Shown: one piece after another, positions 10,697-33,494 of the stretch | Position numbering within the stretch: the stretch's first letter is position 1 | How the letters are laid out: the number at the start of each line of letters is the position of its first letter | Source of the DNA: Leptolyngbya sp. | GTDB taxonomy: Bacteria; Cyanobacteriota; Cyanobacteriia; Leptolyngbyales; Leptolyngbyaceae | Assembly (NCBI GenBank): GCA_003249025.1 | Contig: QBMH01000016.1 | Location: 6,689 to 40,182, forward strand | Length of the DNA: 33,494 bases | Direction: 5' to 3' | Notes under the pieces: model-generated | What the model was told of the DNA's origin: nothing | The model's database searches: none | What the model saw: only the letters and a program-made list of their open reading frames with translations | Made by a program: the position numbers and the translations under genes

Positions 10697-11308
10697 TGAT
10701 TTCTAAAGAGATTGCGGTGATTTTAGCGTGAGAGTTAGAATGGGAGAGTATTGAGTTAGATTCTCAGAAGGTATTTCTTAAAAGGTTTGGAACCTAGTTG
10801 CTTTAGATAGAGTTCCCTAAAACGCATAGCTACTCTGAAAAAGCTGCTAGTTTTAGCCTTTGCTCTATAAATAATTAAGTAGCTGACAGCGAACAATATA
10901 GTTTGCAGTGCTGCAATTAGATATATTAACGGATTCTGATCGCCTATGGACGATACTGCCCCCGTTGGAATCTAAATCCGTACCGCCAAACTTGTTGAAG
11001 TAGACCTGATGAAGCTAAAATCCTTGCCTTCCTAAGGTTGAAAAGTAAAGACAGTGGGAGATATTAGCCTAAGTATAGTGACTTTACGATTTAGACTTTT
11101 GAGTAAAAAATTTAAGAATCCGCTAAAATCTTGGACACAGCGTATTTTGGGCACAGTGTTAAAAATATGTTTGTCGTAGAGCCAGTACACATTAGATGTA
11201 ACCGCTTGTTTCTAAGGCTAAGATAAATGATTTAAACAAGGGTAGTCACAACAAAATTTTATTTTAGAAAAACTTACTAACTAATTGAGCCTTGGGGGGA
11301 TATGTAAT
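10697..11308. other. Divergent intergenic region between tig and asd
   Basis: About 610 AT-rich bases with the promoters for the tig cluster (-) and the asd-dapA genes (+). A TATAGT at 11074-11079 is a possible -10 box for asd but lacks a clear -35. The asd ribosome site (GGGGGGA, 11294-11300) is strong. I see no RNA gene, repeat or reading frame worth reporting. Confidence 0.45.
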
Positions 11309-12346
11309 TTGGATGAATCTTATCGAGTTGCCATATTGGGCGCAACAGGAGCCGTTGGCACTGAGTTGATGACGTTGTTGGAAGAACGTCATTTTCCAGT
11401 TTCTCAGTTAAAGCTACTAGCTTCTTCACGATCTGCGGGACAAACCCTTCACTTTCGAGGAAAACCCTTGATTGTTGAGGCAGTTAGCGATCGCTCTTTT
11501 GATGGCATTGATTTAGTCTTGGCTTCAGCGGGTGCATCGATTTCAAAAACTTGGGCACCCAAAGCGATCGCGGCAGGAGCAGTGGTCGTAGATAATTCCA
11601 GCGCATTTCGGATGGATGCTACGGTGCCGCTGATTGTCCCTGAAGTGAACCCTCAAGCCGCCGCACTCCACCGGGGAATTATTGCAAATCCCAACTGCAC
11701 CACCATTTTGATGGCAGTAGCAATTTATCCATTGCATCAAGTGCAGCCCATTCAACGGATTGTTGCCGCTACCTACCAATCTGCTAGCGGCGCAGGCGCA
11801 CGGGCAATGGAAGAAATGAAGACGCAGGCGCAGGCAATCCTCAATGGGCAGGAACCTGTGGCTGAAATATTTCCTTATCCCTTAGCCTTTAATCTTTTTC
11901 CGCACAACTCTAAGCTAAATGAGCAGGGCTACTGTGAAGAAGAGATGAAGATGGTCAACGAGACGCGTAAAATCTTTGGAGTACCCGATTTGCAAATCAC
12001 TCCAACCTGTATACGGGTTCCCGTAATGCGCGCTCACTCAGAAGCGATTAATCTAGAGTTTAAGCAACCGTTCAGTGTGGCTCAAGCAAGAGAAATTTTG
12101 AGTCATGCATCTGGAGTCCGTTTAGTAGAGGATTGGTCGGCAAATTATTTTCCAATGCCTATCGATGCAAGTGGAGAAGATAACGTATTGGTGGGTCGAA
12201 TTCGCCAAGATATTTCTCACCCTTGTGGCTTGGAGCTTTGGCTGTGTGGTGACCAAATTCGCAAAGGGGCAGCGCTCAATGCAATTCAAATTGCTGAGTT
12301 GCTAGTGCAAAAGCAGTTACTTAAGCCTATAGTGGCAATGACTTGA
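11309..12346 (+). CDS. asd: Aspartate-semialdehyde dehydrogenase
   Basis: Reduces aspartyl phosphate to aspartate semialdehyde, the branch to lysine/diaminopimelate, threonine and methionine. I place the start at the TTG at 11309, eight bases after GGGGGGA. It gives 345 residues starting MDESYRVAILGATGAVG, so the NADP-binding GATGAVG motif sits where the family has it. An upstream TTG at 11285 would add 8 residues and leave the ribosome site inside the gene. The catalytic Cys130 is in NPNCTT, and His243 in MRAHSEAIN. dapA follows 75 bases later and uses the product, so the pair forms a pathway unit. Confidence 0.95.
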   Translation: MDESYRVAILGATGAVGTELMTLLEERHFPVSQLKLLASSRSAGQTLHFRGKPLIVEAVSDRSFDGIDLVLASAGASISKTWAPKAIAAGAVVVDNSSAFRMDATVPLIVPEVNPQAAALHRGIIANPNCTTILMAVAIYPLHQVQPIQRIVAATYQSASGAGARAMEEMKTQAQAILNGQEPVAEIFPYPLAFNLFPHNSKLNEQGYCEEEMKMVNETRKIFGVPDLQITPTCIRVPVMRAHSEAINLEFKQPFSVAQAREILSHASGVRLVEDWSANYFPMPIDASGEDNVLVGRIRQDISHPCGLELWLCGDQIRKGAALNAIQIAELLVQKQLLKPIVAMT

Positions 12347-25183: not shown

Positions 25184-25229
25184 AAGAATGATGAATGATT
25201 GGCTTGATTGATGATTGGTTGAATTGAAC

Positions 25230-26030
25230 ATGACTTCTGTATCTCAATGCTTTGAGCATCTCCGGAGCCACGCCCGTTGCGCTCTGATTCCTTTTGTGAC
25301 GGCAGGCGATCCTAGTTTAGAAGTGACAGCGAAGGCATTGGAGCGACTGGATCAAAGCGGCGCTGACTTGATTGAGTTAGGTGTGCCCTATTCTGATCCG
25401 TTAGCGGATGGACCGGTGATTCAAGCGGCGGCAACGAGAGCGCTTCAGCGAGGAACGCGGTTTGAGCAGGTGCTGGAGGTGGTGCAGCAGGTGAGTCCTC
25501 GGTTGCGATCGCCCATCATCTTGTTCACCTACTACAATCCGATTTTGAATCGGGGCATTGACTCGTTTTTGCAACAAATTGCTACGGCTGGCGTGAAAGG
25601 GTTAGTCGTGCCCGATTTGCCGTTGGAAGAAGCAGAGGTTTTGCTGAAGCCTGCGGCAGTTCATGGAATTGAGTTGACGTTGCTGGTGGCTCCCACTACG
25701 CCAAAAGAGCGGTTATTGGCGATCGCCCAGCAGTCTCAAGGATTTATTTACCTGGTCAGCACGACGGGAGTAACCGGAATGCGTGCCCAGATGGAATCCC
25801 GCGTGAAAGATATGATCCTAGAGTTACGCGGCGTGACGGATAAGCCCATTGGAGTTGGGTTTGGTATTTCCCAACCAGAACACGCGCGGCAAGCCATGGA
25901 ATGGGGCGCAGATGGAGTAATTGTCGGTAGCGCTTTCGTAAAACGATTAGCCGATGCTTCGCCCGAAAAAGGCTTACAGGATATTGCCGATTTTTGCCGG
26001 ACGTTGAAAGCTGCGATCGCGCCCAGTTAA
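25230..26030 (+). CDS. trpA: Tryptophan synthase alpha subunit
   Basis: Cleaves indole-3-glycerol phosphate to indole, which is passed to TrpB. 266 residues from the ATG at 25230; a TTG at 25215 would add 5. The catalytic residues Glu49 (LIELGVPYS) and Asp60 (DPLADGP) fall exactly at the Salmonella numbering. [17 protein letters not shown] and [10 protein letters not shown] mark the rest of the barrel, and GVGFGIS and [11 protein letters not shown] form the phosphate site. It is the third gene after ndhL and DUF3007; trpB is not in the window. Confidence 0.96.
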
Positions 26031-26386: not shown

Positions 26387-27355
26387 ATGACTACTCCAAC
26401 ATCACCGTTGGGAGCTAGACGTTTGCGTACGCTTTTCTTTGCAGTGTTTGCAGGCGGTCTAAGCTACCAGGGGTTTGCTGCTTACGCCCAAACCAGTTTA
26501 ATTCCCAATACTGCAACGGCAGGATTTCAAAGTACGCCAGGAGGACCGTTCCGCACAGTTCGCTCCAATACGGTGACGGTTCCTTTGTTGAACGAACGGT
26601 TAGAGATTATTAAGGTTGCCGATCGCGGTGCCGCAGAACCGGGCGACTCGGTGTCCTATCGGCTGTTGGTCAAAAACTCTGGTAGTAGCCCTGTCACAAA
26701 CGTGGCGGTTACCGATACGCTGCCTTTAGGATTTAAATTTTTGAATAATTCTGCGAAAGCAGCAATCAGCACAGCGGGTAGCCCAGAAACGCCTGTTGCG
26801 TTGTCTAGCGTCATAACGAATGGTCAAACGATTACATTTACTTATCCAGTCCTTGCGCCTCAGCAGACTTTAGTGATTGTCTATGCGGCGCTGCTTTCAC
26901 CAGATGCCGTCCGAGGTTCGGGGCAGAATGTGGTGGTTGCTGCTGCTAAAAATGTGGGAGGTGGAGAGGTGCGAAGCAATACGGCTAGCGCTCAACTACG
27001 GATTCGTCCGGGTATTTTGTCGGATTGCGGCACGGTTGTAGGTCGGGTGTTTGTAGACAAAAACTTTGATGGAGAGCAGCAGCCTGGAGAGCCGGGAATC
27101 CCGAATGCGGTCATTTTTATGGATGACGGGAATCGTGTCACGACCGATCCGAATGGCTTGTTTTCTTTGCCGTTTGCGATCGCGGGATACCGCTCAGGCA
27201 CATTAGATTTAACCAGTCTGCCGGGATATACGCTAGCTCCCAACCTCTATCGGATTGAAGCAAACAGCCCCTCCCGACTTGTTAAGTTATCGCCAGGAGG
27301 CATGGTGCGGATGAATTTTGCGGTAACGCCAACCTTTAGGGAGGGACAGCGATAA
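26387..27355 (+). CDS. Secreted DUF11 / SdrD B-like domain protein
   Basis: 322 residues, exported. A basic start (RRLRTLFFAVFAGG) leads to a hydrophobic stretch and a probable signal-peptidase site after AAYAQ (about residue 35). A DUF11 beta-sandwich covers about 70-170 (LEIIKVADRGAAEPGDSVSYRLLVKNSG, VTDTLPLGF). A second sandwich of SdrD B/CNA-B type covers about 212-300 (GTVVGRVFVDKNFDGEQQPGEPGIP, DPNGLFSLP). DxNxDGxQ-like acidic residues there suggest calcium binding, which is inferred. There is no membrane anchor, so it is probably periplasmic or surface-attached through a partner. Its TAA overlaps the ATG of the next gene (TAATG), coupling their translation. Confidence 0.85.
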   Translation: MTTPTSPLGARRLRTLFFAVFAGGLSYQGFAAYAQTSLIPNTATAGFQSTPGGPFRTVRSNTVTVPLLNERLEIIKVADRGAAEPGDSVSYRLLVKNSGSSPVTNVAVTDTLPLGFKFLNNSAKAAISTAGSPETPVALSSVITNGQTITFTYPVLAPQQTLVIVYAALLSPDAVRGSGQNVVVAAAKNVGGGEVRSNTASAQLRIRPGILSDCGTVVGRVFVDKNFDGEQQPGEPGIPNAVIFMDDGNRVTTDPNGLFSLPFAIAGYRSGTLDLTSLPGYTLAPNLYRIEANSPSRLVKLSPGGMVRMNFAVTPTFREGQR

Positions 27356-30300
27356 TGCGAATTTACTCAATTGCTTTATTTGGTCTTAACCTTTTAACAA
27401 CCCTTTTGGGGGCACTCGGCATTGTGGCAGCCCATGCCATTGAGCCAGCAAGCGCGCCTGCGAGTGGTGCCAAGCTGGAAAAAACACAGCCACTCGGATC
27501 GGCTCAAGCTGAGGCAGGAAGTCCTTCGCCAGTCAAAGCCGCCGCCCTTAAGCCGACTCCAGCGGCACTATTAAAATCGGCTGAGGTGAAGCAAACCCAA
27601 GCGCAGGCTCCGGAGAGCAGCCAATCTCCATCGTCGATTCAAATTCTCAGCCCCACCAATTTAGTCAGTGGAGCCAAGTTTACTGACTTGGTGGTGCAGT
27701 ATTCGACTGGAGCGAAGGTTCAAATTACGGTCAACCAGCAACCGCTTGATCCTGCCACACCTACCCAAGCCCAGGAAAATCCGGCAACCAACCAGGTGAC
27801 TCAGGTTTGGTATCGAGTGCCGCTGATATCTGGAGAAAACACCATCACGGCACAAGTCAAGGATGCTGCCCCCGTCAGCATCACCCTGACCGTGAAAGAA
27901 ACCTCCGCCAAGATTGAGTTTCTACCGACGCAGCAATCTAGAATCCCAGCCGATGGGCGATCGGTGCTGCCAATTCAGGGGCGCATTCTGGATGAAGCGG
28001 GGCAACCGATCGCCCAAAATGCTGTCGTCACTCTGACTGCCAGCAGCGGAAAGTTTGTTGGCGCAGATTACGACAAAGATCGTCCTGGCTTTCAGGTATT
28101 AGCGCGAGATGGCAAGTTTCAAGCACGGCTCCAGTCGGGGCTAGAAGCGCAGATGGTACGGATTCGGGCAGCCGTCGATCGCCACGAGCAGGTGACGCGA
28201 TCGGAAACGAAGAAACCCGTTGTCCCCTTCCCCGACCTAAACAAGCCGCCCTATCTACTCGCACCCAATCCAACAGATAAAACCTTAGAAGCTTACACCC
28301 AAGCAGAATTTACGACCAATCTCCGCCCCTTTATTTTGTCGGGTGCGGTCAATCTCCGCTTAGGGCAAGGGGGGCTGGATTACTTCGGCAGTTTTGAAGA
28401 TTATTTGCGTCCGAGCCTACTAGATGGCGGCTATCGGGTTGATTTCAGCACGGCAGCCTTTGCCCAAGGGCGCATTGGAGAGTGGCTGTTTACTGGAGCT
28501 TTCAACAATCAGCGCGCCTTAAACAAAGACTGCTCTGGGGCAACGCGGCTGTTCCGCGACCCACAATTTTGCGATCAAGTCTATCCCGTTTATGGCGATA
28601 GTTCCACCGTTGATTACCTCACGCCATCGATCGATAGTGTCTACTTCAAGCTAGAGCGCACATCGCCCACAATCGGCGCAGGGTCAGACTTTGCCATGTG
28701 GGGCGACTACACCACCTCAGAGTTTGCCAGAGCGTCTCAGTTTTATAGTGCCACCACGCGTCAACTGCATGGATTTAAGCTCAACTACAACTTGGGCGAC
28801 CTGCAATTGACGGGCATGTATGCCAACAACGTCAGCGGATTTCAGCGAGACGCGATCGCCCCCAACGGCACCAGCGGCTACTATTACTTATCGCGTCGCT
28901 TGCTGACGAGAGGCAGCGAAAACATCTTCCTGGAAACCGAAGAATTTAACCGTCCTGGAACCGTAGTCGAGCGCAAACCGCTGTATCGCGGTACGGACTA
29001 CGACATTGACTACGATCGCGGCGCAATTATTTTTCGGCGTGTCGTCAATGCCTTGGAGTTTGACCCTTTCGGTCGCACACTGGTTCGCCGGATCATTGCC
29101 ACCTACCAGTTTGAAGACCTAAAAGATGGCGGCAAACTTTACGCCGGACGTGCCCAATATAACTTGTCACGAGAATTGGGCAGGGAAATTTGGGCAGGGG
29201 TGACCTACCTCCAAGAAAATCAGGGCGACCAGCGATTCCAGCTTTATGGCGGAGATGCGTTGATATCTCTGGGCAAAGATGCCCAACTGACCGGAGAAGT
29301 GGCTCGTTCCGACTTCGACTCGATTTTTCGAGGTGACATCGGCGGCTATGCCTATCGGTTTGAACTGCTGGGCACTCTGACTCCCGGAGTAGTGGGCAAG
29401 GCATTCTATCGCTCGGTTGAATCTGGATTTGTCAACAACGCCTCGGCTAGCTTCACTCCCGGACAAACCCGTTATGGAACCGAGATTGCCGCCAAAGTGA
29501 CCCCAACCACTCAGGCAACGGTGCAGTTTGACCGAGAAGTCAACTTTGGGATTGCGCCTGCAATACGAGGTCTTACTGCCATTACGCGAGCAGGCTTTGG
29601 AGATTTATTTAACCCCACGACTGAGCCAATTCCGGGCAGTCGGGTGGATAACAGCATGAGTACGTTTCGGGCGGGAGTGCTGCAAAAGCTGGGACCGATT
29701 GAGCTAGGGTTAGATTTCGTCCGGCGATCGCGCCAAGATCGGGTTTTTCCGCAGTTGCTCGAAGCCGATACCAACCAGTTTATATCCCGGCTCAACTATC
29801 CCATTTTCAAAACCCTTACCTTCCGGGTTCAAGATGAGCGCAACTTGGGCAGTAGCCCCGACCCGCTGTATCCCAACCGCACCACGGTCGGCTTAGACTG
29901 GGCAGCCGATAAAGATGTCACCGTGCGTCTGGCGCAGCAATTTATCGGCAGTACTGCCCAGCTTAGAGACAACTCCTTTACCAGCCTGGATATTTTGTCG
30001 GACAAGCGCATCTCAGACGACACCACTTTTACCAACCGCTACTCCTTAATCAATGGGATCAATGGTTGGTCGAGTCAGGCGGCAATGGGGATGAGCCATC
30101 GCATTTTGCTTGCCCCTGGCTTACGGGCAAGCCTAGGCTTAGAGAGAATTTCAGGCGATGTGGTTCCCTACGCTGCCGCTGGACAGCAGTTTCTCCAACC
30201 GATCGCGGCAGGACAAAGTGTCTCCTCTTTAGGACTATCCGCCTACACCAGCTATAGCGTTGGGCTAGATTACATCGATAATCCCAACTTCAAAGCCAAC

Positions 30301-31143
30301 GGTCGGTTTGAATATCGCGATGGCGAAGGTCGCAATGACACGATGGTGATTTCGGCAGGAGCCGCCGGAAAGATATCGCCCTCGTTTACGATGCTAGGTC
30401 GCTACCAGCAGGGCAATTTTGCCAACCAGCTACTAACGGATTCTGGCTTGTCGGATACGGTCAACCTGAAGCTGGGCATGGCATATCGCAATCCGAGTGA
30501 TGATAAATTTAACGCTCTACTGCGCTATGAATATCGTCAAAACCCTGCTCTCACGCCTGATACGATTTTGTTTGGTTCAGGGACGGGTTCTAACGTGCAT
30601 CTGGTGGCGCTGGAAACGATTTATGCACCGAACTGGCGCTGGGAGTTCTACGGCAAATTTGCGCTGCGAAGCACTAAGTCTTTCCTGGCGAGAGATTTAC
30701 TAGGCACCAATGCCATCACCCTGGGGCAGTTCCGGGCGGCGTATCGGTTGGGCTATCGGGTGGATGTGGCGGGTGAGGTGCGCTGGATTAGCCAATCGGT
30801 CATCGGTTTTGATGAAGTCGGCTTGGCAGTGGAAGCAGGCTATTACCTTAACCCTAACCTGCGGGTGGCGCTGGGTTATAACTTTGGGCAGGCGAACGAT
30901 CGCGACCTAAGTCGCAACAAAGATGGCGTATATGTCACTCTCAGCCTGAAATTGGATCAACTGCTAAGCGGGTTTGGCGTGACTCTGCCCGGTCGCAAAG
31001 TTGCCCCACCGCAACAGCAAGAATCTGTAGTGAAACCGATCGCAAATCAACCAACTACGGCTCCCCCATTGTCCAGCTTGCCATCAACGAATTCCAATCA
31101 AGCCCCTGTGGCAGCCCAATCTGCTGAGGAGGTGGCGCAATGA
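27355..31143 (+). CDS. Large outer-membrane beta-barrel protein with Ig-like/Big_1 N-terminal domains
   Basis: 1262 residues. A signal peptide (MRIYSIALFGLNLLTTLLGALG) ends near AHA, residue 28. An Ala/Pro/Gln-rich linker runs to about 90, then an Ig-like sandwich (about 95-180) and a Big_1-like sandwich (about 182-275: PADGRSVLPIQGRILDEAGQ). Residues from about 310 to 1210 alternate hydrophobic and polar residues with many aromatic strand ends, as in a large beta-barrel. The motif YRGTDYDIDYDRGAIIF lies near 543-560. A possible disulphide joins two Cys near 392-408. After the last strand (VYVTLSLKLDQLL) comes a 50-residue Pro/Gln/Ser tail. No TonB box or plug domain is recognisable. Its stop overlaps the next start (ATGA). 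Specific function unknown; transporter, adhesin or secretion pore are all possible. Confidence 0.82.
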   Translation: MRIYSIALFGLNLLTTLLGALGIVAAHAIEPASAPASGAKLEKTQPLGSAQAEAGSPSPVKAAALKPTPAALLKSAEVKQTQAQAPESSQSPSSIQILSPTNLVSGAKFTDLVVQYSTGAKVQITVNQQPLDPATPTQAQENPATNQVTQVWYRVPLISGENTITAQVKDAAPVSITLTVKETSAKIEFLPTQQSRIPADGRSVLPIQGRILDEAGQPIAQNAVVTLTASSGKFVGADYDKDRPGFQVLARDGKFQARLQSGLEAQMVRIRAAVDRHEQVTRSETKKPVVPFPDLNKPPYLLAPNPTDKTLEAYTQAEFTTNLRPFILSGAVNLRLGQGGLDYFGSFEDYLRPSLLDGGYRVDFSTAAFAQGRIGEWLFTGAFNNQRALNKDCSGATRLFRDPQFCDQVYPVYGDSSTVDYLTPSIDSVYFKLERTSPTIGAGSDFAMWGDYTTSEFARASQFYSATTRQLHGFKLNYNLGDLQLTGMYANNVSGFQRDAIAPNGTSGYYYLSRRLLTRGSENIFLETEEFNRPGTVVERKPLYRGTDYDIDYDRGAIIFRRVVNALEFDPFGRTLVRRIIATYQFEDLKDGGKLYAGRAQYNLSRELGREIWAGVTYLQENQGDQRFQLYGGDALISLGKDAQLTGEVARSDFDSIFRGDIGGYAYRFELLGTLTPGVVGKAFYRSVESGFVNNASASFTPGQTRYGTEIAAKVTPTTQATVQFDREVNFGIAPAIRGLTAITRAGFGDLFNPTTEPIPGSRVDNSMSTFRAGVLQKLGPIELGLDFVRRSRQDRVFPQLLEADTNQFISRLNYPIFKTLTFRVQDERNLGSSPDPLYPNRTTVGLDWAADKDVTVRLAQQFIGSTAQLRDNSFTSLDILSDKRISDDTTFTNRYSLINGINGWSSQAAMGMSHRILLAPGLRASLGLERISGDVVPYAAAGQQFLQPIAAGQSVSSLGLSAYTSYSVGLDYIDNPNFKANGRFEYRDGEGRNDTMVISAGAAGKISPSFTMLGRYQQGNFANQLLTDSGLSDTVNLKLGMAYRNPSDDKFNALLRYEYRQNPALTPDTILFGSGTGSNVHLVALETIYAPNWRWEFYGKFALRSTKSFLARDLLGTNAITLGQFRAAYRLGYRVDVAGEVRWISQSVIGFDEVGLAVEAGYYLNPNLRVALGYNFGQANDRDLSRNKDGVYVTLSLKLDQLLSGFGVTLPGRKVAPPQQQESVVKPIANQPTTAPPLSSLPSTNSNQAPVAAQSAEEVAQ

Positions 31144-33344
31144 CCATAAGAGGAGTGAATCATTTGCACAGCAGCACGCAGCCGCAAGTATCTCGCTTTG
31201 TAGCGTGGCGCAATTTTCTCAGAGATTGTGCAAACTGTCCTGTCCGACCAGGCATTTATATAGCGGCATCTTTTCTAGCGATCGCGGCAGCAACCCCAGC
31301 CTTCGCACAAGCTGACCGCCAATTCATGCGGGTGATTGTCAACAGTACCAAAGACGGAGTTCAGCCCGATGCCGAACTAACGCTACGAGAAGCAATTTCG
31401 ATTGTGAATGGCACCTTGCCGATGGATAAGCTCAGCGATGCTGAAAAAATGCAGGTTAGCCCTGGCACCGAGCGATCGCGAATTGAGTTCAATCTGATGG
31501 GCGACACCACCATTCGCTTAACCGAAGAGTTGCCGCCGCTTGCCACAGGAATGATGATCGATGGGGGAACCCAACCCGGATACCAGGGCGATCGCTCGGT
31601 GATTACCGAACTGTCACTACCAGCGCCGATCGTGGCGATCGCTCCTGCCGAAGGCGCGTTCATTTTTCGCGGCTTGACCGTGGCAGCCGACGACGTAACC
31701 ATTCGGGGCTTAAGCCTGTATGGGTTCACCTCTAACCATCAAGAACCCGCCATCAACACGCCTAACACACCCACAACGCCACCAGCCGATATTTTTATTG
31801 CCCATCGTCTGCCGCCAGCCGATATTCGCAAACAGCGGATTCCCGCAAACTTCGCCCCCTTTTACCCCGATGATTTGCCGCCTAAAGGCACCCTCATCGA
31901 AAATAACTGGCTGGGCATTCCCCCGTCTGCGGATGGCACTGGGCGTACTACTGGCATTCGTTCTGCCTTTGGAGTCTCGGTCTTCAACGGCACGGGCACG
32001 ATCATTCGGCGTAACTGGATTGCCGATCACGAAGGCAGCGCCATTATTACCTCGGTAAAAGCCACAGAGTTGCAAGTCACCGAAAACGCAATTTTGGCGA
32101 ATGGTGTGGCGGGAATGCCCGACGCAATTCGGCTAGAGGGCAATGTTGACCAGGCACAAATTACGGGCAATGTGATTTGTGGCAACGATGGCAGCGCTGT
32201 GTATTTGTTTAAACCCGATGGCGCGGTGCAAATTCGCGATAATCAAATTGCCTATAATGGTCGTCGTCTGCGGCGGGCTGCCGTTTACCTGATGGGCAAT
32301 AATCACCAGGTCACCAACAACCAGGTGAGTTATCAAGCGGGTCCCGGCGTGGTTGTGGCAGCGGTGCCTCATAGCGAACGGGCAGTGATCACCGGCAATC
32401 GCTTTGTGGGCTTAGAAGGACTGAGCATCGACCTGATTACTCAGCAAAATACCAACGTGTTGGATTATCAGGTAGGGGATGGTTTGAATCCACCGCGCAA
32501 CAATTTCTTTCGCCGCTTGGAAACAGGAAATGCCGCGATCGCCGCTCCCCAGTTCATCACCCGCAACTTTGTCGCCCTCGCCAGTGCCGATGGGCAGGCT
32601 CAGATCTCGCCCGTGCAAATTTATGGCAAAGCTGATCCCGGCTCCGAAATTGAAATTTATCGGGTGACCAGCGCTGGCGGCGAAACGTCCTTAACCGAGC
32701 CGATCGCCAAAGCTGAAACCGACAGCAAAGGTGAATTTACCGCTGCTCTCAGCGGGTTGAAACTGGGTGAACAGATTAGCGCGATCGCCACCGATCCACG
32801 CTACGGCACCTCCGAGCCTGCGGTTCCTGCTCAGATTCAAGCAATCCCCACCACCACAGATTCTCTGCTTGCCACGCCGCCATCCTCAGCGCCAAGATGT
32901 GTCACACTTTCGCCCCCACCGCCGGAACCCCCGCCCGTAGTGCCCACACCAATCGTATTGAAGGTGCCCCGCAACATTCACTTTGCCCTGGATAAAGACT
33001 TTATTAGTCCTGCCAGCGCTAGAGTCCTGGATCGAATTGCCCAAGTATTGCAAGAGAATCCCATGGTACTGGTCAGCATTATTGGACACACCGATCCCCG
33101 CGCCACCGATGCCTACAACCTGGCGTTGGGCGCGCGCCGTGCCCAGAACACCCGCAACTACTTACTCAAAAAAGGGATTGCGGCAGAACGGATCACCATT
33201 CGCTCTGAGGGAGAACGCCAACCCGCAACCCCTGGCAGAAACAAGCTGGATTTTGCCCGCGATCGCCGCGCCGAATTCCTCTACAAAGACGTTCGTGACA
33301 TCGAAATCATCATTCAGGAAGACGACCTGCAAATCGAACGTTGA
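31140..33344 (+). CDS. CSLREA / right-handed beta-helix protein with C-terminal OmpA-like domain
   Basis: 734 residues. An unusually long N-region of about 38 residues precedes a hydrophobic core (IYIAASFLAIAAATPAFA), with cleavage likely after Ala56. A CSLREA-type motif follows (VNSTKDG...LTLREAISIVNG, about 67-91). Residues 110-480 have the repeated short strands of a right-handed beta-helix (ITGNVICGNDGSAVYLF, VTNNQVSYQAGPGVVV). A small Ig-like module lies at about 490-570, then a Pro-rich linker. The OmpA-like domain (about 610-720: HFALDKDFISPASARVLDRIA, GHTDPRATDAYNLALGARRA) should bind peptidoglycan. Its ATG overlaps the stop of the barrel gene. I infer an envelope-anchored, partly surface-exposed partner of the two genes before it. 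Confidence 0.85.
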   Translation: MTIRGVNHLHSSTQPQVSRFVAWRNFLRDCANCPVRPGIYIAASFLAIAAATPAFAQADRQFMRVIVNSTKDGVQPDAELTLREAISIVNGTLPMDKLSDAEKMQVSPGTERSRIEFNLMGDTTIRLTEELPPLATGMMIDGGTQPGYQGDRSVITELSLPAPIVAIAPAEGAFIFRGLTVAADDVTIRGLSLYGFTSNHQEPAINTPNTPTTPPADIFIAHRLPPADIRKQRIPANFAPFYPDDLPPKGTLIENNWLGIPPSADGTGRTTGIRSAFGVSVFNGTGTIIRRNWIADHEGSAIITSVKATELQVTENAILANGVAGMPDAIRLEGNVDQAQITGNVICGNDGSAVYLFKPDGAVQIRDNQIAYNGRRLRRAAVYLMGNNHQVTNNQVSYQAGPGVVVAAVPHSERAVITGNRFVGLEGLSIDLITQQNTNVLDYQVGDGLNPPRNNFFRRLETGNAAIAAPQFITRNFVALASADGQAQISPVQIYGKADPGSEIEIYRVTSAGGETSLTEPIAKAETDSKGEFTAALSGLKLGEQISAIATDPRYGTSEPAVPAQIQAIPTTTDSLLATPPSSAPRCVTLSPPPPEPPPVVPTPIVLKVPRNIHFALDKDFISPASARVLDRIAQVLQENPMVLVSIIGHTDPRATDAYNLALGARRAQNTRNYLLKKGIAAERITIRSEGERQPATPGRNKLDFARDRRAEFLYKDVRDIEIIIQEDDLQIER

Positions 33345-33425
33345 CGTGTGTCTGCTACACCCGCAATATCTGAAATCAACCCGACGACTAACCGCCCCAA
33401 TAATCGCCATGTGTGAGGAGAATGG

Positions 33426-33494
33426 ATGAAACGTCCCTTGAGGATACTGGCAAGCCTAGCCTCCCTTAGCACCCTCCTGGGGGGTTCCCAGCCC
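33426..33494 (+). CDS. Exported protein, 5' end only
   Basis: The window ends after 23 codons: MKRPLRILASLASLSTLLGG, then SQP. A basic start and a hydrophobic core give a signal peptide. GAGGAG at 33415-33420 is an excellent ribosome site. It lies 81 bases after the OmpA-domain gene on the same strand, so it is probably a fourth member of the surface-protein set. The mature protein is outside the window and cannot be named. Confidence 0.7.
   Translation, partial: MKRPLRILASLASLSTLLGGSQP

Follow-up and report, generated by a model that had tools for sequence, protein, structure and literature searches.

The 33,494-nucleotide stretch of Leptolyngbya sp. DNA analysed here (the window) ends in consecutive plus-strand genes for exported proteins, P1 to P4, raising the question of whether their products work together as a single envelope assembly split into subunits, as a sequence-only reading had proposed. 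As detailed below, comparison with relatives makes the existence of a co-inherited module near certain, and we consider it somewhat better than an even chance (about 0.55) that P1, P2, P4 and, where present, P3 form one envelope assembly of barrel, adaptor, surface clients and tether respectively.

Gene layout and domain content

P1, P2 and P3 are intact plus-strand open reading frames whose N-termini, inspected by eye, resemble Sec signals. P1 (26387..27355, 322 aa) carries a signal sequence, a DUF11 domain (aa 72-160) and an SdrD_B-like region near the C-terminus from aa 220. Its stop codon shares 1 nt with the start of P2 in a TAATG junction (27353..27357, plus strand). P2 (27355..31143, 1262 aa) consists of a signal sequence, a Pro-rich linker, Ig-like and Big_1-like domains (aa 96-274, 27640..28176) recognised by Pfam scan and AlphaFold2, a beta-barrel predicted to have about 40 strands (aa 327-1199, 28333..30951), and a Pro/Gln-rich C-terminal tail. 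Stop and start of P2 and P3 share 4 nt in an ATGA junction (31140..31143). P3 (31140..33344, 734 aa), the proposed peptidoglycan tether, displays in order a signal sequence, a CSLREA-like motif, a right-handed beta-helix, an Ig-like domain, an OmpA domain of the peptidoglycan-binding type (32982..33260) and a conserved C-terminal tail, DLQIER (33324..33341). Both gene overlaps reported earlier are thus present, and production of the three proteins in fixed ratio, judged from these overlaps, is plausible. Of the fourth gene, P4, only the ATG and 23 codons encoding a signal sequence are included (33426..33494, plus strand) because the window ends with its contig (C77); the earlier description of four consecutive genes holds in full for the first three and for the beginning of the fourth. 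A trpA-like TIM-barrel gene (tryptophan synthase alpha by sequence inspection) lies before P1 at 25215-26030, and a similar gene precedes the set in two other loci (L070 and L071).

The domain content that had been claimed was recovered in Pfam and family profile scans, with differing strength. DUF11 in P1 (2e-11; 4e-14 for TIGR01451), Beta_helix in P3 (5e-10) and OmpA in P3 (PF00691, E 2e-17, 64 bits against a cut-off of 27) are solid, while SdrD_B (0.004), Big_1 (4e-4) and CSLREA (0.013) fall below curated cut-offs yet at the expected places, SdrD_B exceeding the cut-off in one fused homologue. The OmpA domain of P3 is the sole PF00691 copy in its own genome, where a single DUF11 match exceeds the cut-off. 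The Ig domains of P2 resemble those of GH2 beta-galactosidases and of intimin/invasin. A PDB sequence search with the P2 profile retrieved these domains only (GH2 enzymes and invasin), the barrel being without match, and the Pfam scan assigned no sequence family to the barrel region.

The assignment of P3 to the peptidoglycan-binding type is strengthened by its intact GHTD...R motif (GHTDPRATDAYNLALGARRA), equivalents of which are kept across P3 relatives; we take the conserved Asp and Arg to be the diaminopimelate contacts. The C-terminal DLQ[LI]E tail is near-invariant in cyanobacterial P3 relatives and also occurs in an OmpA protein of Acinetobacter (L150 11584-12666), the remainder of which is unlike P3. 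The beta-helix, on the other hand, had been placed on the cell surface, a location that does not agree with the make-up of P3: the protein has a signal and a periplasmic-type OmpA domain and no membrane-spanning part, and helix and OmpA domain should therefore lie on the same side. Judged from this composition, a periplasmic helix is more likely than a surface-exposed one.

A conserved P1-P2 core and its partner family

To the question of whether homologues are scattered or kept together, 115 P2 loci and a phylum sample of 292 genomes give a clear answer. Strong matches to P2 were found in 32 of the 292 genomes, all of class Cyanobacteriia, with weak matches in four more distant ones. Strong P1 matches occur in the same 32 genomes, and strong P3 matches are confined to them. 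P1 lies immediately 5' of P2 in all 108 loci where the contig extends that far, an adjacency far beyond chance expectation, and the two genes overlap in 72 of these (ATGA in 62, T(A/G)ATG in 10), so that most relatives display ATGA against the TAATG of the window. The genes consequently form a conserved set, as had been proposed, although its membership has to be redrawn. P3 follows P2 in only 56 of the 115 loci and was dropped as a core member; the tether is therefore not essential, and the core consists of P1 and P2 with the P4 family, overlooked in the earlier three-protein view, as constant partner.

Two subtypes of the locus are found: in A, that of the window, P1 is short, while in B it is long and two additional genes lie upstream. 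In type B (L049 13513-16806 and other loci), these upstream genes, which are conserved and absent from subtype A, encode exported-looking proteins of about 850 aa (DUF7925) and about 187 aa (DUF11-like). A stand-alone P3 gene distant from every barrel was noted in one genome (G174:C1:2631276-2633333, L160), which also holds a third P1-P2-P4 locus lacking P3. Loci with P1 and P4 but seemingly without P2, in the same genome and in G091, proved only apparent, P2 being present there.

The identity of the truncated fourth gene was established through a locus whose DNA is about 85% identical (L070), where the matching gene opens a tandem array of three paralogues of about 600 aa and its product carries a C-terminal DUF11-type domain. 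Given these tandem copies, the contig of the window probably broke in a repeat. Members of the P4 family differ in their front ends (lectin-like, SdrD_B-repeat or DUF11-repeat regions) and share a conserved DUF11-type domain, about 166 residues long, at the C-terminus. This domain is present in 102 full-length copies in 92 of the 115 loci, every one stopping 0-3 residues short of the stop codon, with GFVRFRVRIN as the typical ending.

The distribution of this domain follows that of P2. In the phylum sample, a profile of the domain (threshold E 1e-10) detects it in exactly the 32 genomes with P2 and in none of the other 260. Among 390 genomes of the class, a sample partly overlapping the first, 148 have both, 13 P2 only, 8 P4 only and 221 neither, counts on which a Fisher test ignores kinship. 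Five of the 8 genomes with P4 only belong to one family (f25; G307, G339, G349, G357 and G365) and give weak scores; their barrel may have diverged, or the domain may serve another purpose there. Furthermore, for all 95 P4 domains compared, the closest relative came from a locus with a barrel of matching subtype, and this agreement also holds in genomes carrying both subtypes. In several loci P4 is not nearby. The own genome of the window has an unlinked copy, flanked by homoserine/housekeeping-type genes, on contig C66 (26526-26999; L156 10093-12003), encoding a protein of 636 aa with a subtype-A C-terminal domain, and a second genome has another (G278, contig C168); both agree with the subtype of their own genome's barrel. 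Co-inheritance, subtype agreement and unlinked copies together give the pattern of clients following a machine. DUF11 being a common fold, the C-terminal domain of P4 may also be merely structural.

These observations bear on the simplest explanation of the locus, namely that ordinary surface-protein genes lie together without a common machine, their order kept by recent descent alone. Most relatives do come from one class, and neighbouring genes can persist together by inertia. However, within one genus (g16) the set is patchy and yet its members were gained or lost together, P2 and P4 both being carried by G072, G127 and G245 and neither by G048 and G064. Unlinked P4 genes track P2 as well, and fusions of the parts extend across phyla. 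This explanation is already disfavoured and we regard it as highly improbable.

The fusions also bear on the idea of a machine split into subunits. On an Acinetobacter plasmid, P1 and P2 are fused into one protein of 2008 aa, followed by the OmpA protein that shares the OmpA domain and tail of P3 and then by a DUF11 protein whose end is a DUF11 domain. On a Sulfitobacter plasmid, a 6195-aa protein of about 35 DUF11 repeats ends in a P1 module and adjoins a P2-like barrel. OmpA is fused N-terminal to the barrel in Eleftheria, while in two cyanobacterial families a degenerate OmpA-like domain is C-terminal to it. Since such fusions connect all the parts, the view of the gene set as a split machine is borne out. 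The barrel-fused OmpA-like domain at L051, L053, L057, L058, L059 and L068 has lost the GHTD peptidoglycan-binding motif; P3 at these loci, where present, keeps it. The proteobacterial genes, annotated as 'DUF11 domain-containing', 'OmpA family' or 'TonB-dependent receptor', are genuinely related and share both modules and neighbours with the cyanobacterial set, although their modules are fused in differing orders, identity over the barrel is 25-30% and they are likewise functionally unassigned.

The predicted barrel and its likeness to known systems

The roughly 900-residue outer-membrane barrel suggested earlier is supported by two AlphaFold2 models and by fold comparisons. Whole P2 modelled with 29 relatives gave a pLDDT of 71 and a pTM of 0.59, and the barrel alone with 55 relatives a pLDDT of 77 and a pTM of 0.69. 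About 41 long strands were counted in the latter model, or 40 +/- 2 if the number is even, and an even number is indicated by the fusion of OmpA at either end of the barrel, which places both ends in the periplasm. Alignments of the model to porins begin at its first strand and end at its last, suggesting that the sheet closes. P2 is thus predicted, with moderate confidence and an uncertain strand number, to form one outer-membrane barrel of roughly 40 strands from a single chain; the model would fit a single open pore as well as a barrel that is plugged or irregular. A strand-alternation score was no better than a shuffle at the threshold used and was excluded from the evidence. To our knowledge, SprA with 36 strands is the largest single-chain barrel.

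Foldseek ranked SlpA, SprA, LptD and fimbrial ushers among the top structures and also matched the Mtr complex, TonB receptors and porins, all with low TM-scores, which makes these matches resemblances of kind. The presence of TonB-dependent receptors and porins among them, together with the 'TonB-dependent receptor' annotation of proteobacterial relatives, could point to P2 as a TonB-type receptor or large uptake porin, with the DUF11/Ig proteins trapping its substrate on the cell surface. Pfam scans of P2, however, contained no N-terminal plug family, some 40 strands are predicted instead of 22, and its partners, fibre-type DUF11 proteins and peptidoglycan tethers, include neither binding proteins nor inner-membrane transporters; we consider an uptake function improbable. 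P2 was also rejected as an inverse autotransporter of the intimin/invasin kind, its Ig domains being N-terminal to a barrel far above 12 strands.

The best fold match, SlpA of Deinococcus, leads to a static alternative, in which P2, P1 and P3 would constitute an outer-membrane anchor like SlpA/OmpM (SDBC of Deinococcus), with the C-terminal domain of P4 merely docking and the DUF11 proteins arriving by another route, such as type I or type II secretion. Both have a large barrel and peptidoglycan attachment, but P2 has more predicted strands and its attachment would be via a separate OmpA protein; the Pfam scan found no SLH domain in P2. A separate SLH protein occurs only at locus L062, a distant relative from another class; encoded at 10906-11640, between the genes resembling P1 and P2, it might take the place of the OmpA tether. 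This position of OmpA and SLH domains beside the barrel agrees with an anchor, as do the apparently ordinary Sec signals of P4 proteins. Subtype-matched clients with an invariant extreme C-terminus, on the contrary, are not needed by a simple anchor, and ranking folds among large barrels cannot tell an anchor from a translocon. A static scaffold is retained as a possible but doubtful explanation.

SprA, among the best fold matches of the P2 barrel (Z 13.8, 340 residues, 8.4 A), belongs to the outer-membrane part of the type IX system (SprA/Sov and PorE-type OmpA), which shares with our gene set a very large single-chain barrel and a peptidoglycan-binding OmpA-type partner. Type IX clients resemble P4 in combining front ends that vary with a C-terminal beta domain that is conserved. 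The likeness is nevertheless one of fold only, no sequence relation to P2 having been detected; a TIGR04189 (SprA) search was silent in the own genome and silent too in the control genomes. The C-terminal region of P4 matches DUF11 and not Por_Secre_tail (PF18962), for which the own genome has two matches only, both below cut-off. The gene set may thus work like the type IX translocon by analogy, while membership in type IX is not supported and was not adopted, the client domain of P4 being of another type.

The giant DUF11 proteins that form surface hooks, GhpA of Aureispira and GhlA of Litorilinea (PMC13319060), are likewise DUF11 Ig-like chains on the surface, and the 6195-aa Sulfitobacter relative of P1 is similar in size. 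They carry about 50 DUF11 domains, compared with one to several in the proteins of the window and of cyanobacteria, none of which is a hook-forming protein, and the passages describing them name no P2-like barrel. P1, with one DUF11 domain and not tens in thousands of residues, was not assigned to the grappling-hook fibres. A literature search reaching neither subscription papers nor preprints returned no published name or description of the gene set. It did retrieve the use of a signal peptide from a DUF11 protein of Synechococcus PCC 11901 (PMC13297417); DUF11 matches of a paper on T11SS cargo were discarded as a lead, nearly all being DUF1194.

A possible working of the assembly

In the single envelope assembly that we favour, P2 would sit in the outer membrane with its Ig domains and C-terminal tail facing the periplasm. 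P1 would be a dedicated adaptor or base module on P2 and might plug or cap its large barrel. P4 proteins, whose genes lie within the locus or at other genomic sites, would be the surface clients, recognised by their cognate P2 and P1 via the C-terminal DUF11-type domain, then held at the barrel and possibly exported through it. Where present, P3 would anchor the assembly to peptidoglycan through the GHTD...R motif of its OmpA domain, its DLQ[LI]E tail being a possible contact to the complex. Gene order, co-inheritance, subtype agreement, domain content and the fusions are observed and the barrel is modelled; these contacts, the topology, client recognition and the export of P4 as against its simple anchoring are inferred. 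A bolder proposal, advanced only tentatively, is an outer-membrane export and display system, fused or split, common to Cyanobacteria and Proteobacteria, in which a barrel of some 40 strands with a DUF11/SdrD_B adaptor would carry P4 out by its C-terminal domain.

Few surface-protein systems have been characterised in cyanobacteria, and the P2 set is found in 161 of the 390 class genomes sampled. If P2 recognises the C-terminal domain of P4, the location and route of many 'DUF11 domain-containing' proteins could be predicted, and the tail of P4 could serve as a tag for protein display on cyanobacteria. With about 40 strands, the barrel would moreover probe how large single-chain outer-membrane barrels can become. 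Taken together, the P1-P2 core and its P4 partners represent a candidate new mode of protein display on bacterial cells.
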